Shown here in pieces: positions 4,885 to 26,726 of a stretch of DNA of 28,995 nt. The number at the start of each line of letters is the position of its first letter. The stretch's first letter is position 1. Both the position numbers and the translations under genes were made by a program. Location of the stretch: positions 1-28,995 of IMG/VR virus record IMGVR_UViG_3300038825_000912. One strand, 5' to 3'. The notes below the pieces were generated by a model. That model made no database searches. It saw only the letters and a program-made list of their open reading frames with translations, and was not told the origin of the DNA. The stretch comes from a virus.

Positions 4885-7583
4885 TGCCTAAGAGACTGTA
4901 CCAATTAAATGACTTTAGCGGTGGGTTAAACACCGTTAAGGACATTGCTGATATCGCTGACAATGAAGTTGGTGAAGCTAGAGCTGTAATGTTTAATGTG
5001 TATGGCGGTATACAGCCATTCTATAGCATGTCAGACAGTACCAATAACAAAGTTGCCGCCTACTCCACTTCTTTTACAGATGCTACTTGCGACTTTAACA
5101 ACGACCCAACGATTGCACATGATGCAAACACTAGAATCGTTCTTGGCATGACCGTTTCCGGAACGGGTATCCCTTCTAATTCATTTGTAAAGTCTGTGAC
5201 AAGCAGTACTTCTTTTGAATTGGGAGATGGCCCCGGAGGAAGTGATGTCGATACTACTGGAGGTAGCGTAACAAATGAAACATTGACTTTTACAACTGGC
5301 GTTGCAACGGTTCAGCCCGGATATGGTTTAGGGTACTTTGAAACTGACTTTGAAAGGGATTTGCTTACAGTTTCACAGACCAGTTCTATTGCTGGAGATG
5401 ATAGTAGTGAAGGTTCTGCTACTGGTTTTATAGCAAGAACTAATGGTAGCGTGTTAAGGGAACTGGAATATAAAGTTAGTGGAGCTCAGCAAAACCTTGC
5501 ATCTTCTTTTCCTATTGGCACTTTTGTACACATGACGGCCAGTGCTTTTCCTGCAAATGGAATTGACAGGGCGGCTCAAGGCATTTATCGTGTAGTGGAC
5601 ACAAATGGCAATAATATTGTTTTTGATAGGGCTATGCCTATTGCGATTGAAAGTCCTCCGCAAGTTTTCTGGGGGGCTACTCTTGTAGGTGCCTCTATGG
5701 GAGGCAAGGTACTGCTTTTGTCTAGCCCGGCAGACCATACAATAGATACCCTTTCTATAAATTCTGGTATCTGGGAGTTAAGTTCAATTACCCTACGTTC
5801 ATCAGCAACCGACATTGCCTCTCAAGTTAAGTATTACAAGATAGAAGATTCTATAAGGTGTTGCGATGTAGTTGATAAAAATGATTGCAAAATTCAATGG
5901 TATGGATGGATACAGAGAAGACATTTTGATAATGTTAATGCATCTGATGATGATAATTCTTATATGGGTTATTTTGCAAAGGATAACGACCTTGCAAGAC
6001 CAACAGAAGATGACCTTGCCACCAGCTCAGGAACTGCTGGGGCTGTATCGGCTTATCCTAATAGTGCTGGCACTGGATTTGAGATAGCGATAGCAACTGA
6101 GACAGATCAAGATGGGGTAATAGAAGCGGGAACCTATGAGCTTGCATCTACTTTTATTTACGATGGCAATCAAGAATCTTTACCCTTTGCTTACACAAAT
6201 ACGCACACAGTTTCAGAGGGAAACGAGTTTAAAGCTTTGTCTATCAACATCGGTGCTAAGGGGCCATACGACCCTAGGATATCTGGTGGTAGGATATATA
6301 TTAAAAAGCAAGGTGATGATTCTGAGTTTATTATGCTTGTAGACATTGACCTTACAAAAGGTGCTAGGACAAAGCTTTCAGACGATTACACTGTATGGCA
6401 TGATGCAGGTAGCTCAACATACAACTGCCCTACTGCAACAGCCTCTGCTAATTTCAGAGTTACAGAACTTGGTTTTATTACTTACGAAGTTATCAATGGT
6501 TTTAGCTCCAGTATCTTTAGTAATGCATTGGGTGACTCTGGGGAACATTGGAAAGATGCAGTCGTTGCAAACAATAGAGTGTTTGTGTGCAATGTGACCA
6601 TGAAAGATGAAAGCACTGGAGACACAAAGGCAGATGCTACATTAAAGTCTTACCCAGATAGAATCATGTATTCTATGCCTAATAGGTATGACACCTTTCC
6701 ATCTAACAATTTCATAGAAGCGGCTAAGGGCGATGCGGATGTATACGTTGCAATAGAAGCGTATGCAGATAGATTGTTAGCTTACAAGAATAAAAGTTTA
6801 GATATTATTAACATAGCCGGAGATGACCGTAATTGGTTTTTGGAGGATAGTAAACGGTATCAGGGTGTATCTCACCCAGAAGCAGTAAAAAGAACCCAAT
6901 ATGGCGTAATATGGGCCAATGAACAGGGTCTATATTTATACAATGGATCCTCTATAACTAATCTGAGAGAAAATAAAATTAGTGATAGTGAGTGGGGTAG
7001 TCATGTAGGTGGCACTACAGGAATTATATATGACGAGCAAGAGTCTATGGCTTTTGTTGTTAAGAGCTTAGATAATTCTGGTGATGTATATATGTGCGAT
7101 TTGAAAAAAGGGAATTTTACATTTTCAAGAGATTTTGTTCCAGATACAAACGATGGGCTAACAAATTCAGTAGATACAGAAAGCAACAATACGTTAATTG
7201 CTCACGATACGGGCAGTGCTGTTGACCTTTATCAAATAAATAGGACTGTGGTAGCAAATCAAGTTACTCAATTCACAACAAAAGCGTTAAGCTTTGGAGA
7301 CATACATCAAGTTAAAAAAGTGTACGCTGTACATATAACATATAAATCTGATGCTGTATTGACAAGTATGTTTACTTTATTGGAAGAGGACGGTACTAGC
7401 ACTGCTTTAAGTGGTACTATTAGTGCATCTGCATCTAACTGGGCAAAGGTAAAGCTTACTCCTTCATCACCGGTGACTTGCAATAAGGTTTCTTTAAAAT
7501 TTGCTAGTAGCACTACTGCTGTTAAGTTATATATTAACGACATTGCAATAGAGTATAGAACCCTTTACAAGAAAGGTTCTTAA
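4884..7583 (+). CDS. Large tail/virion structural protein
   Basis: An 899-aa protein starting at GTG (GTAGTG overlap with the previous stop; AAGGG just upstream). The N-terminus, LNDFSGGLNTVKDIADIADN followed by an alanine/asparagine-rich helix and a Gly-Gly turn, is the form often seen at the start of tail-hub or tail-stabilisation proteins of short-tailed marine phages. The middle is beta-rich, with many Thr/Ser/Gly turns, and includes a YVAIEAYADRLLAYKNKSLD stretch reminiscent of beta-propeller repeats. The last 100 residues form a separate beta-sandwich-like region (FGDIHQVKKVYAVHITYKSD). I infer a virion protein near the tail tube or hub; the precise role is not shown. Confidence 0.7.
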   Translation: MPKRLYQLNDFSGGLNTVKDIADIADNEVGEARAVMFNVYGGIQPFYSMSDSTNNKVAAYSTSFTDATCDFNNDPTIAHDANTRIVLGMTVSGTGIPSNSFVKSVTSSTSFELGDGPGGSDVDTTGGSVTNETLTFTTGVATVQPGYGLGYFETDFERDLLTVSQTSSIAGDDSSEGSATGFIARTNGSVLRELEYKVSGAQQNLASSFPIGTFVHMTASAFPANGIDRAAQGIYRVVDTNGNNIVFDRAMPIAIESPPQVFWGATLVGASMGGKVLLLSSPADHTIDTLSINSGIWELSSITLRSSATDIASQVKYYKIEDSIRCCDVVDKNDCKIQWYGWIQRRHFDNVNASDDDNSYMGYFAKDNDLARPTEDDLATSSGTAGAVSAYPNSAGTGFEIAIATETDQDGVIEAGTYELASTFIYDGNQESLPFAYTNTHTVSEGNEFKALSINIGAKGPYDPRISGGRIYIKKQGDDSEFIMLVDIDLTKGARTKLSDDYTVWHDAGSSTYNCPTATASANFRVTELGFITYEVINGFSSSIFSNALGDSGEHWKDAVVANNRVFVCNVTMKDESTGDTKADATLKSYPDRIMYSMPNRYDTFPSNNFIEAAKGDADVYVAIEAYADRLLAYKNKSLDIINIAGDDRNWFLEDSKRYQGVSHPEAVKRTQYGVIWANEQGLYLYNGSSITNLRENKISDSEWGSHVGGTTGIIYDEQESMAFVVKSLDNSGDVYMCDLKKGNFTFSRDFVPDTNDGLTNSVDTESNNTLIAHDTGSAVDLYQINRTVVANQVTQFTTKALSFGDIHQVKKVYAVHITYKSDAVLTSMFTLLEEDGTSTALSGTISASASNWAKVKLTPSSPVTCNKVSLKFASSTTAVKLYINDIAIEYRTLYKKGS

Positions 7584-8269
7584 TGGATAGGGCTACTCGA
7601 TTCATTGCCAACAGAAAACAGGATAAGATTAGAGTTGTAAGAGAGCAGCCCTCTGTGCAGTCCATGAGAGAGGGTGAGGAGGTTTTGTACTTTAGAAATC
7701 GTGGAGTGCTTACAAGATACAGAAAAGAACGTGGCAAGCTGTGGACTTCTGATATGCACGAAGGTCGCAATAAACAAGAGGAAGGTACGTTTACAGCATC
7801 AAGATTGGAGTACAGATCATCGTTTGTAGACTATAGAATGTTCATACACAACTTTACAGATGACTTACCCGGAACAAAGATATATATACCTTGGCATGGT
7901 GCGGGAGAACAAACATCTTTTCCAGAGGCTAGGACTTCCTTCTTAGCTCCTTTTGACATGACCTGTCATAAAATAATGATTAGGTTGCCTGAGATGGATA
8001 ACTCTGCCACTGATATTGTTTTCACAATAGAAAGAATTAAAAATCAGGAAACGGCAGACGATGAAGCTACTGTGTGCACATACGATGCTACAGATTCTTG
8101 GAATGATGATAATAATTTCACAATAAGCAAGAACGAATGGACTGCCAATCCAAAAATATCCGCTGGGGAGATGGTTCAAATAGGACTTAATGCAGACAAC
8201 ACAAATATAATCACCAGTGAAAAACATTTTATAATAACTTCTGTATGGAAGGTTATTGTAACAATATAA
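7583..8269 (+). CDS. Virion appendage or tail protein
   Basis: A 228-aa protein, AAAGG six bases before an ATG that overlaps the previous stop. Residues 1-60 are basic and polar, including VLYFRNRGVLTRYRKERGKL, which looks like an attachment region. Residues about 70-228 are beta-rich and end in the pattern FTISKNEWTANPKISAGEMV, then a strand pair (HFIITSVWKVIVTI), as in a jelly-roll-like receptor or capsid-decoration domain. It sits between the tail protein and the ejection-type genes, so a tail or virion surface role is likely. No enzymatic motif seen. Confidence 0.6.
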   Translation: MDRATRFIANRKQDKIRVVREQPSVQSMREGEEVLYFRNRGVLTRYRKERGKLWTSDMHEGRNKQEEGTFTASRLEYRSSFVDYRMFIHNFTDDLPGTKIYIPWHGAGEQTSFPEARTSFLAPFDMTCHKIMIRLPEMDNSATDIVFTIERIKNQETADDEATVCTYDATDSWNDDNNFTISKNEWTANPKISAGEMVQIGLNADNTNIITSEKHFIITSVWKVIVTI

Positions 8270-8281
8270 TCTTTATATTGT
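8261..8281 (+). terminator. AT-only hairpin after virion gene
   Basis: ACAATATAA, a 3-base loop TCT, then TTATATTGT form a perfect 9-bp stem that includes the stop codon of the gene before. A few T-rich bases follow (AAGTTTTATT). The stem has almost no G/C, so it may be a weak terminator, an RNA-processing signal or simple chance. Confidence 0.35.
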
Positions 8282-8316
8282 GATAAAAGTTTTATTAAAT
8301 TCAAAGGAATCACACC

Positions 8317-10266
8317 ATGGATTACAACTCTAACAAATCAAAAGGCTATGTACCGCTATCGTCTGGCCCGAACATGACCGGTTATTATATGGGTGAATCT
8401 CCTAACCTTATGAACATGATGCAGACCGGCGGACAGACTACAGCGGGTGGAGCCGCATTGGCTCGTGCATTGCAAATGCAAAAAGACCAAAGAAGATTAG
8501 AGTCAGCACAAAGAAAAGAAGCTAAGAGACAAAAGAAAGGCGGGCTATTTGGTAGTATTGGTGGCATTGCTGGAGGTCTTTTAGGTGCGGCATTGGCACC
8601 AGTTACAGGGGGTGCAAGTTTAGTATTGGCATCTGGACTAGGAACAGCTTTAGGTAGAAGGGCTGGTGAGGGATTAGGTGCTGGTAAGTCTAGGGGTGTT
8701 GATAGGTCTGGTACTGTATTTGGACAACAATCATTTAGAGATGTAGAGCAGGCAAGTCGTGATTATACGAGAGGTATGGGTGAAAGGGCTTTAGTTTCTG
8801 GTTTAACAGCGGCGGCTACCGCAGGATTTTCTCCCGGTGGCGGTATTTACGGAGCAACTGGCAGGGCCGCAGAGGCTGGTAAGTTAGGTACCATTGGAAC
8901 AAGATTAAGAGAAGGTGCATCTGCTATTGGAAAAGCTGGTGCAAAACTAGGTTTAGGTTCTGGAAAGGCACTAACAACTGCTTCCGGAGAGCTCTTGTCT
9001 AGTGGTTTGCCTGCTAATATAGCTGGCTCTGCTTTAGCAGATACTGTTTTAAAAGGACTTGATAGTCCGGGTGGTAATACTTTTGGTATTTCACAAATGC
9101 CTTCATTGAATGAAGCTGAAATTCTTGGAGATGTTGCTGTTCCTGATTTCGATGTTTCCCTACCAGACTTTTCAAATTTACCACAAGCTCCGAGTGTTAG
9201 TGAAAAGGCATATCTTAGAAGTTTACCAGATGCCATATCGTTAGGAGAAGAGAACGCATTATTAGATGCGGCTCGTACAGCACAAGGTGCTCAAGCAACC
9301 GCAAAAGAAGCAAGTAGGTCAGCGGGCTCCTTAATGGGTTATTTACAAAGGCAAGAATTAGGCCCACTTGCAGACTTTTCACTTAGAAGAGGTTCTAGTT
9401 CAAGCATGGATCCTTCATTAGTTGAAGCTGTTAGTCCTTATTTTAATTTACCAATGTCTCCTTATGGAAGTCCGTCTATGGCCTCTGTTGGAGTAGGCCC
9501 CTTAACAGTTCTTGGAGGGTCTCCGTCATACGGCATGGAAAATGGTGGTCTTATTGGCATGCAAACAGGTGGTTTGACAGCAGAGCAAATTTTAGAACAA
9601 CAAGGTTTACAGGCTACTCCTGAGCAGTTAGCATTGTTTCAAAGATTTGACCCTACTGGCATATCAAGGGCTACGGAGGGTGCTGGTCAAAGTTTGCTTA
9701 ACATGACTGCTGGTCAGGGATTAGCAAGTGCTGGCGGTGGTTTTGGTGCACAGCAAAGTGCTATATCTCAAATAGTAGAACAAGGACAGAAGTCTCTTGA
9801 ACGGGAGATAGAAGATGAACAAAAATCTTACCAGTCACAGGTGATGGGAACTGCGGCAGATATTGTTGCTGGTGGCGGTGAGTTTCGTGAATATCTCCAT
9901 ACCAATGCACCTCAGAATCCTAATGTTGGTGATACATATGCTCGTGGAGGAAAAGAATACGAATGGAATGGTTCTCAATGGGTAGACCTTCGCCAAGCTG
10001 GCGGGCCAAGAGACGACTATGATTATGACGATGATTATTACACAAGCGATGTTAACCTAAAAGAAAACATTGATTTAGTTGGTTTGTCCGATAGTGGTAT
10101 CAACATATATACTTTTGAATATAAAGATAAGAAATATGGTGAAGGCGTGTATCGGGGTGTCATGGCACAAGAGGTTCCTTGGGCATCCTTTGAAGCTAAT
10201 AATGGATACCTTGTTGTAGACTATAGCAAGGTTGATGTAGACTTTGAACAGGTATATAATGGCTAA
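8317..10266 (+). CDS. Glycine-zipper virion protein with C-terminal S74-type self-processing domain
   Basis: A 649-aa protein, AAAGGA eight bases before the ATG. Residues about 73-125 are a glycine/alanine-rich hydrophobic zipper (SIGGIAGGLLGAALAPVTGG) as found in membrane-inserting or pore-forming proteins. The middle is low-complexity and Ala/Gly/Ser-rich. The end (577-649) has the hallmarks of the intramolecular chaperone/peptidase S74 domain: SDVNLK with Ser577 and Lys582 spaced as the catalytic dyad, then YRGVMAQEVP and VVDYSKVDV. It is a short version without the usual long C-terminal helix. Position first in a three-gene set suggests an internal virion protein analogous to T7 gp14; S74 domains usually sit on fibres, so the fusion is notable. 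The domain is well supported, the ejection role is inferred. Confidence 0.8.
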   Translation: MDYNSNKSKGYVPLSSGPNMTGYYMGESPNLMNMMQTGGQTTAGGAALARALQMQKDQRRLESAQRKEAKRQKKGGLFGSIGGIAGGLLGAALAPVTGGASLVLASGLGTALGRRAGEGLGAGKSRGVDRSGTVFGQQSFRDVEQASRDYTRGMGERALVSGLTAAATAGFSPGGGIYGATGRAAEAGKLGTIGTRLREGASAIGKAGAKLGLGSGKALTTASGELLSSGLPANIAGSALADTVLKGLDSPGGNTFGISQMPSLNEAEILGDVAVPDFDVSLPDFSNLPQAPSVSEKAYLRSLPDAISLGEENALLDAARTAQGAQATAKEASRSAGSLMGYLQRQELGPLADFSLRRGSSSSMDPSLVEAVSPYFNLPMSPYGSPSMASVGVGPLTVLGGSPSYGMENGGLIGMQTGGLTAEQILEQQGLQATPEQLALFQRFDPTGISRATEGAGQSLLNMTAGQGLASAGGGFGAQQSAISQIVEQGQKSLEREIEDEQKSYQSQVMGTAADIVAGGGEFREYLHTNAPQNPNVGDTYARGGKEYEWNGSQWVDLRQAGGPRDDYDYDDDYYTSDVNLKENIDLVGLSDSGINIYTFEYKDKKYGEGVYRGVMAQEVPWASFEANNGYLVVDYSKVDVDFEQVYNG

Positions 10267-25945: not shown

Positions 25946-26422
25946 TTAATTTGGCAATTCATAAAAATCTTTTGCCCACCTTCGTTTATTCTGATTCTGA
26001 AAGTTGCCATTATTCTGTGCCTTGCTTGAATCATAGAAAGCGAGCTCTCTCACATATTCCTTGCCCTTCATATTTTTTGGTTGTGGGTAGAAAATAACTC
26101 TGTTCGTGTGTTCGTCTAATGGTACTGCAATATAATCACAATGATTGGGAGTTATCTTCACTCGTAAAGATTGTCCGTAGGTTGTATCCGACATCCTAGA
26201 ATGATACTTAACTTGTATAGATCTCCATTTATTTAGTAGTGTTCTTTGCCCCCATTTCTTAGGCTTACATACAACCATATCAACTCCTAAATCTACATCG
26301 GGTCTCGTAACTATGTACCCATTCTTTAAAAATAGGTTGGATACATTATTTTCTCCAATCATACCTTGTACCATAGTTCCCACATCTAAAGTACTTGTTT
26401 TTTTGTATCTTTGTTTTTTCAT
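25946..26422 (-). CDS. PD-(D/E)XK nuclease, QxK type (homing-endonuclease-like)
   Basis: A 158-aa basic protein. ATG 26422 (GGAG eight bases upstream) is preferred over GTG 26431. The core has Glu24 in VQGMIGENNVSNLF, Asp48 in PDVDLGVDMVV, and Gln70-Val-Lys72 in RSIQVKYHSR, the PD-(D/E)XK order with Gln in place of the third acid. A QxK form is known from group I intron enzymes such as I-Ssp6803I. LRVKITPNHCDYIAVPLDE follows as a further strand pair. It lies 38 bases behind a tRNA-like RNA and has no promoter of its own, so it is probably co-transcribed with it. It could also be a resolvase or restriction-type nuclease. Confidence 0.7.
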   Translation of the reverse strand: MKKQRYKKTSTLDVGTMVQGMIGENNVSNLFLKNGYIVTRPDVDLGVDMVVCKPKKWGQRTLLNKWRSIQVKYHSRMSDTTYGQSLRVKITPNHCDYIAVPLDEHTNRVIFYPQPKNMKGKEYVRELAFYDSSKAQNNGNFQNQNKRRWAKDFYELPN

Positions 26423-26459
26423 ACTATTCACTCCATTTGTGTAACTTGTCTTAATCTTG

Positions 26460-26629
26460 TGAGCCGAGAAGGAGTCGAACCTTCGATTATTAGGCTACCA
26501 CTTTACCCATTGTCAAGAGGGGCAACAAGGCTCTATTCCTTACGCTCTGTCCAATCTTAAATTGGCACACTCTACTGCTAGAGTCTTTCACACATTTCCA
26601 TAGATTTACTTTTCACCTTGTATCGGCTC
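26460..26629 (-). ncRNA. 170-nt tRNA-like structured RNA
   Basis: On the minus strand the 3' end is a standard tRNA half: stem GAAGG, loop TTCGACT, stem CCTTC, then TCGGCTC and A. The 5' end, GAGCCGA, is the exact complement of TCGGCTC, 170 nt away. In between: ACAAGG pairs with CCTTGT; ACTCTA/TAGAGT and CCAAT/ATTGG form hairpins; TTGCCC can pair with GGGTAA. Just before the T-arm is GGGT-AAAGTGGTA-GCCT, much like a D-arm. No normal anticodon arm fits and there is no G-U at pair 3, so neither tRNA nor tmRNA is supported. CCA is not encoded (ACAA follows). The predicted start of promoter copy 5 falls within about 3 bases of GAGCCGA. A tRNA with an intron or a degenerate tRNA remain options. 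Confidence 0.6.
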
Positions 26630-26638
26630 TATTACTTA

Positions 26639-26666
26639 TTATACTACATTGTTTTTTAAAAGTTCC
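26639..26666 (-). promoter_or_regulatory. ECF-like promoter, copy 5 (tRNA-like RNA)
   Basis: GGAACTT (26666-26660), 15 bases, GTATAA (26644-26639), minus strand. The end of the -10 box is nine bases from the 5' G of the tRNA-like RNA. Confidence 0.75.
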
Positions 26667-26680
26667 CATTTATTTTTATT

Positions 26681-26710
26681 TATCGTACTTGAGTATACTT
26701 GAGTACGATA
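26681..26710. promoter_or_regulatory. 30-bp palindrome, possible operator
   Basis: TATCGTACT at the left pairs with AGTACGATA at the right, and the inner 12 bases complete the fold with two G-T pairs and a 2-base loop. CTTGAGTA occurs twice in direct order inside. It is 14 bases upstream of the -35-like box of promoter copy 5, a fitting place for an activator or repressor site. A transcript end hairpin is the alternative. Confidence 0.5.
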
Positions 26711-26726
26711 GTTTATATCTTTCTCC

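Follow-up and report, generated by a model that had tools for sequence, protein, structure and literature searches.

The closest described system to the RNA reported here is RNAC of phage T4 (species 1 RNA, 139 nt), a small stable RNA that is conserved across T4-like phages and whose function is unknown (PMC9697503, PMC3014915, PMC12685909). In T4 it was confirmed by Northern blot (PMC9697503). In the genome sequence (AF158101, 70908-71046) RNAC starts with TCGATTCG and ends with CCGGG TTCGAAT CCCGG CGTTTCG, which gives a T-arm and an acceptor of 7 positions, two of them U-U mismatches. We found no description of RNAC as tRNA-like among the openly readable papers searched, and the likeness may already be known from older literature. 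One genome record (L070) labels the place of RNAC 'tRNA-OTHER'.

Similarly, tmRNA (RF00023) combines a tRNA acceptor and T-arm with a large insert and has no anticodon arm. A further comparison is offered by the bacterial Y RNA YrlA (RF02553), a noncoding RNA with a tRNA-like module carrying T-arm and D-arm features, whose ends form an Rsr-binding stem and are not known to form a tRNA acceptor. Here we describe a phage RNA that shares the tRNA end with RNAC and tmRNA, and compare it with each of these systems.

A tRNA-ended RNA and its homologues

The window analysed is the whole stretch of 28,995 nt that makes up positions 1-28,995 of IMG/VR record IMGVR_UViG_3300038825_000912. The RNA runs from 26629 to 26460 of the minus strand with the sequence GAGCCGA TACAAGG...GAAGG TTCGACT CCTTC TCGGCTC A, and CCA is not encoded at its 3' end. 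A preliminary description had pointed to a T-arm and acceptor strand at the 3' end with the exact 7-base complement 170 nt upstream, which the minus-strand letters and a descriptor search both confirm. The descriptor, consisting of a 5-bp T-stem, a TTCRANN loop and an exact 7-nt acceptor complement 60-260 nt upstream, matches once in the window compared with a mean of 0.005 per shuffled window (200 dinucleotide shuffles). The elements of the RNA are as follows.

26460-26629, minus strand: tRNA-like RNA, 170 nt including discriminator A26460; with the family model, full-length homologues reach 155-216 bits
26623-26629, minus strand: acceptor stem, 5' strand GAGCCGA, paired with 26461-26467 in all 12 copies
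26461-26467, minus strand: acceptor stem, 3' strand TCGGCTC, exact complement of GAGCCGA, with the discriminator A at 26460
26468-26484, minus strand: T-arm, 5-bp stem GAAGG/CCTTC and loop TTCGACT; all cells paired (12 copies)
26615-26621, minus strand: predicted P2, 5' strand ACAAGGT, proposed partner GCCTTGT at 26525-26531; invariant
26525-26531, minus strand: predicted P2, 3' strand GCCTTGT; invariant
26600-26604, minus strand: predicted P3, 5' strand TCTAT, proposed partner ATAGA at 26532-26536; invariant
26532-26536, minus strand: predicted P3, 3' strand ATAGA; invariant
26569-26584, minus strand: variable hairpin 1, ACTCTA/TAGAGT, two pairs changed on both sides in L064
26551-26565, minus strand: variable hairpin 2, CCAATT/GATTGG, four of six pairs changed on both sides
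26505-26523, minus strand: predicted P4 hairpin GCCC/GGGT with an 11-nt loop, CTCTTGACAAT, at the place of an anticodon arm; stem invariant
26485-26504, minus strand: linker AAAGTGGTAGCCTAATAATC with D-loop-like GTGGTA; GG invariant, surrounding bases and length variable
26591-26622, minus strand: 5' half of the core (family positions 8-39), 30 of 32 positions invariant (12 copies)
26505-26541, minus strand: 3' half of the core (family positions 89-125), 33 of 37 positions invariant (12 copies)

IMG/VR was searched for homologues with two proteins encoded nearby and with conserved segments of the RNA itself. The RNA was found in 17 other viral contigs, in one of them cut by the contig end, and occurs in two size forms, one of 169-170 nt and one of 143 nt from which variable hairpin 1 is missing. 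The copy in L064 is divergent, its acceptor being GTGCCGG/CCGGCGC instead of GAGCCGA/TCGGCTC. Outside this set, two patterns built on the core gave zero matches among 84,980 prokaryote genomes, and known phages contained neither a DNA match nor relatives of three window proteins; a literature search returned no paper describing the RNA. Several pattern matches were discarded: those in L044 and L047 lie in GC-rich DNA where the rest of the RNA is missing, those in L053 and L054 come without acceptor or T-stem, and the one in L002 is an ordinary tRNA-Arg. L002 is a phage contig with 21 tRNA genes (7318-9996), in which the 3' end of tRNA-Arg(TCG) shares 21 bases with the window RNA, probably by coincidence.

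Covariation was evaluated for 40 named pairs in 12 distinct copies, using an alignment fitted to the family model. Standard pairing is present in 99.8% of the pair cells, and 11 pairs have changed on both sides, compared with a shuffled mean of 3.7 (none of 500 shuffles was as high; slid controls gave 0-1); because one or a few lineages account for the majority of the changes, they represent fewer events than cells. The 11 comprise two of the seven acceptor pairs, three of the five T-stem pairs and six in the two internal hairpins. The acceptor strands, which lie more than 150 nt apart, show such double changes, with L064 as the only homologue that carries them. When a plain MAFFT alignment was used for the acceptor, the T-stem and the invariant stems, five both-sided pairs were obtained versus 1.0 after shuffling (0 of 500), all five within the acceptor and T-stem. 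The new tRNA-like RNA put forward in the preliminary description thus holds up by the test proposed alongside it: acceptor complement and T-arm are conserved together in homologues, with compensatory changes. The RNA is real and under selection, and not a decayed tRNA.

The inner part of the molecule behaves differently from one region to the next. Invariant positions amount to 63 of 69 in the core, 5 of 49 in the middle hairpins and 11 of 21 in the linker (12 copies). The several stable stems noticed before divide into two internal hairpins that covariation bears out and the stems P2, P3 and P4, whose pairings stay predictions because they do not vary. The D-loop-like stretch AAAGTGGTA is present, but its flanks show no consistent pairing among homologues. 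Single sequences fold only modestly better than their shuffles (z -1.3 to -2.5). For the window copy another pairing of the T-stem is preferred in silico, at -43.8 versus -38.4 kcal/mol for the family structure, so that the alternative is better by 5.4 kcal/mol; among the eleven other copies folded, the T-arm is favoured in ten and P2 as well in seven. RNAalifold proposes different pairs in the P2/P3/P4 region.

Promoter and genomic neighbourhood

The element described earlier as GGAACTT-N15-GTATAA is present as stated, and the start it predicts lies no further than about 3 bases from the 5' G of the RNA.

26636-26667, minus strand: promoter-like element GGGAACTTTTAAAAAACAATGTAGTATAATAA, with TATAAT at 26643-26638 and a start expected at most about 3 bases from the RNA 5' G

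In the window GGAAC begins 37 bases upstream of the RNA, and the same spacing, exactly -37, recurs in 13 of 15 other contexts (12 by regular expression, L007 by eye), where the element reads GGAAC...TATAAT or TTAAAT. A near-perfect 14-bp palindrome, TTATCGTACTTGAGTATACTTGAGTACGATAG, lies just upstream of this promoter (window 26680-26711) and is a candidate terminator or binding site.

The surroundings of the RNA bear on its main rival reading, that of a cis-acting leader in which a tRNA-like fold in the 5' UTR of the downstream gene controls expression or marks a processing site. What makes it the main rival is that no second promoter separates the window RNA from the gene after it. L003 and L007 share this arrangement: in all three, the promoter is followed by the RNA and then by the same 161-aa gene, the gap to the ORF as called being 29 nt. 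A gene also follows closely in L060, where the RNA comes after a terminator-like hairpin, and in L064, where the gene order is different and a TATAAT precedes the RNA. A leader should remain attached to a single gene. However, eleven other contexts (L017, L019, L028, L029, L041-L043, L046, L048, L050, L051) carry a second copy of the element directly after the RNA and different genes beyond it, and L004 is an empty site, in which the same promoter leads to the same gene but the RNA is missing. We consider a leader unlikely. The 161-aa ORF itself (window 25946-26431, minus strand) belongs to PHROG 5018, a family that assigns no function; no relative with a solved structure was found for it, and its conserved D-x-G-x-D ... 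Q-V-K pattern is reminiscent, at the sequence level, of PD-(D/E)XK nucleases.

The early genes of the window's lineage are separate cassettes. In the early regions of L017, L028, L041 and L048, small cassette genes, many with their own GGAACTTT...GTAGTTAAATAAG promoter, are reshuffled among related phages. Two window proteins (G015 and G021) have relatives with 44-49% identity in some RNA-bearing records, and no convincing relative in the others. Since the RNA occurs in records without detectable relatives of these proteins, a host factor is a likelier partner than a phage protein. Hairpins of the RNA and neighbouring genes vary while the core stays almost invariant. Such persistence of the core amid changing genomic surroundings suggests transfer between phages together with either a host partner or an activity of its own.

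Tests against known RNA classes

The RNA is neither an ordinary tRNA nor a tmRNA, as the preliminary description had stated: ARAGORN predicts neither at this place and the tmRNA model RF00023 gives no match at E up to 10, although it matched control genomes. A 7-bp acceptor stem, a 5-bp T-stem and a 7-nt T-loop are present, but the best candidate for an anticodon arm is P4 with a loop of 11 nt instead of 7; read as such an arm, it would have A, G or U as base 37. With the tRNA model RF00005 the RNA scores 12.3 bits against a gathering cut-off of 29. The family model in turn aligns weakly to the class II tRNAs of T4 (tRNA-Leu 17.4 bits, tRNA-Ser 13.4 bits), placing P4 at the anticodon arm; unlike these, the RNA has about 100 nt at the place of the D-arm, the 11-nt P4 loop and a score below the tRNA gathering score. 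In Rfam 15 there are 0 matches at gathering scores, the best sub-threshold match reaching 20.8 versus 65.7 bits and lying on the opposite strand. The YrlA model RF02553 has no match at E up to 10, which sets the RNA apart from this class. The RF04354 (Plastid-ycf2) model gives weak matches on the strand opposite the T-arm (window 26459-26533, plus strand; L064 683-746, minus strand), and what this family captures may be the antisense of a tRNA.

Two further alternatives are both very improbable. The first is a rescue RNA of the tmRNA type, minimal or derived, which would enter the ribosome and encode a short tag. Such an RNA would share the acceptor and T-arm with a large insert, and a short frame, ATG GGT AAA GTG GTA GCC TAA TAA, precedes the T-arm in the window; yet this frame is offset by a single base in L046 and L051 and missing from L064, and acceptor pair 3 is G-C in 12 of 12 copies rather than the alanine G-U of tmRNA (G3-U70). 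The second, an intron-bearing tRNA, was among the earlier suggestions. In this reading, splicing would take an intron or a ribozyme-like insert out of the transcript and leave a functional tRNA. Without the P2/P3 arm (positions 9-105) exactly 73 nt remain, and the core shows the invariance that a catalytic core would have. The 73-nt remainder, however, lacks an anticodon stem. No tool reports a split tRNA, none of the collections searched yielded an intron-less relative, and group I and group II intron models gave no match; the insert left by the short form would measure only 71 nt. A decayed tRNA, also suggested earlier, or an attachment site copying the end of a host tRNA gene, retains hardly any probability: a T-arm with acceptor is what attachment sites usually contain and the tRNA-Arg of L002 shares 21 bases with the RNA, but that match is an ordinary tRNA, the core patterns are absent from the prokaryote genomes, the promoter is conserved, some 170 nt are kept together as a unit, and the compensatory changes in acceptor and T-stem together with the near-invariant core reject decay.

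Other leads were also followed and dropped. Short reading frames within the RNA (ATGGAAATGTGTGAAAGACTCTAG; ATGGGTAAAGTGGTAGCCTAATAA) are not conserved. The loop CCCCTCTT was considered as an antisense to ribosome-binding sites, with AAGAGGG before one early gene of the window (25554), but the leader differs in front of its relative in L048. No target or partner of the RNA was found.

A possible tRNA mimic and its comparison with T4 RNAC

The conserved gene and its ends, the acceptor and T-arm supported by covariation, the conserved core and the promoter-like element at a fixed distance are established. The best explanation overall, and on balance probably the right one, is a stand-alone phage small RNA gene that would act as a tRNA mimic. 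At the level of the gene, a conserved stand-alone small RNA of phages is highly probable; mimicry as the mechanism, read from the sequence, is a tentative proposal. According to it, the early-type promoter would start a transcript of 143-170 nt whose ends fold together, with the acceptor stem stacked on the T-arm and the discriminator A as a possible site of CCA addition by host enzymes. The long arm (P2/P3 and the variable hairpins), the P4 hairpin and the D-loop-like linker, which may touch the T-loop, would take the place of the D- and anticodon arms. Through its tRNA end, the RNA might be trimmed and shielded by host RNase Z or P, the CCA-adding enzyme and T-loop modification enzymes. Its invariant core, serving as a mimic or decoy, could bind a conserved host factor during takeover, and factors of translation or of the tRNA machinery are the likeliest candidates. 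The near-invariance of the core across otherwise different phages points to such a host target.

Among described RNAs, tmRNA has the same combination of acceptor, T-arm and insert; the present RNA differs from it in model match, in pair 3, in the lack of a conserved tag frame and in a length of half or less. T4 RNAC is nearer in layout. Both RNAs have an acceptor-like stem and T-arm formed by their ends, and a long arm and a hairpin instead of D- and anticodon arms. By this layout the present RNA is a putative member of the RNAC-like kind of phage stable RNA. In RNAC, too, the ends covary: in the Enterobacter phages CIP9 and myPSH1140 its acceptor is CGGTTCG/CGTTCCG, a compensatory change from A-U to G-C, and the T-stem has paired changes in myPSH1140 and Klebsiella phage KaAlpha. 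Compensatory changes across T4-like phages are seen when L055 (909-1047, T4 RNAC) is set beside L066, L067 and L068. The two RNAs show no sequence kinship, RNAC reaching 10.2 bits in an unfiltered search with the family model, below several ordinary tRNAs. Moreover, the acceptor of RNAC has its two U-U mismatches whereas that of the present RNA is perfect, and RNAC has tRNA genes next to it and has been reported as late, in contrast to an RNA with its own promoter in a window without tRNA.

A broader and more doubtful idea is that both represent a new class of phage effector RNAs, mimics that combine a tRNA end with an invariant core and capture a host factor of translation or tRNA processing at takeover. 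RNAC would be its second example, independent or very distantly related, and the class could have been overlooked across unrelated phages because tRNA finders reject such RNAs. The present analysis adds to phage genomes a well-supported RNA family that is found in several groups of uncultivated phages and has no name in Rfam. A tRNA end without an anticodon arm is kept by selection, as covariation shows, in two phage RNA families that lack sequence kinship, the present one and T4 RNAC, and with a second family of this layout at hand the question of RNAC function becomes testable by comparison.
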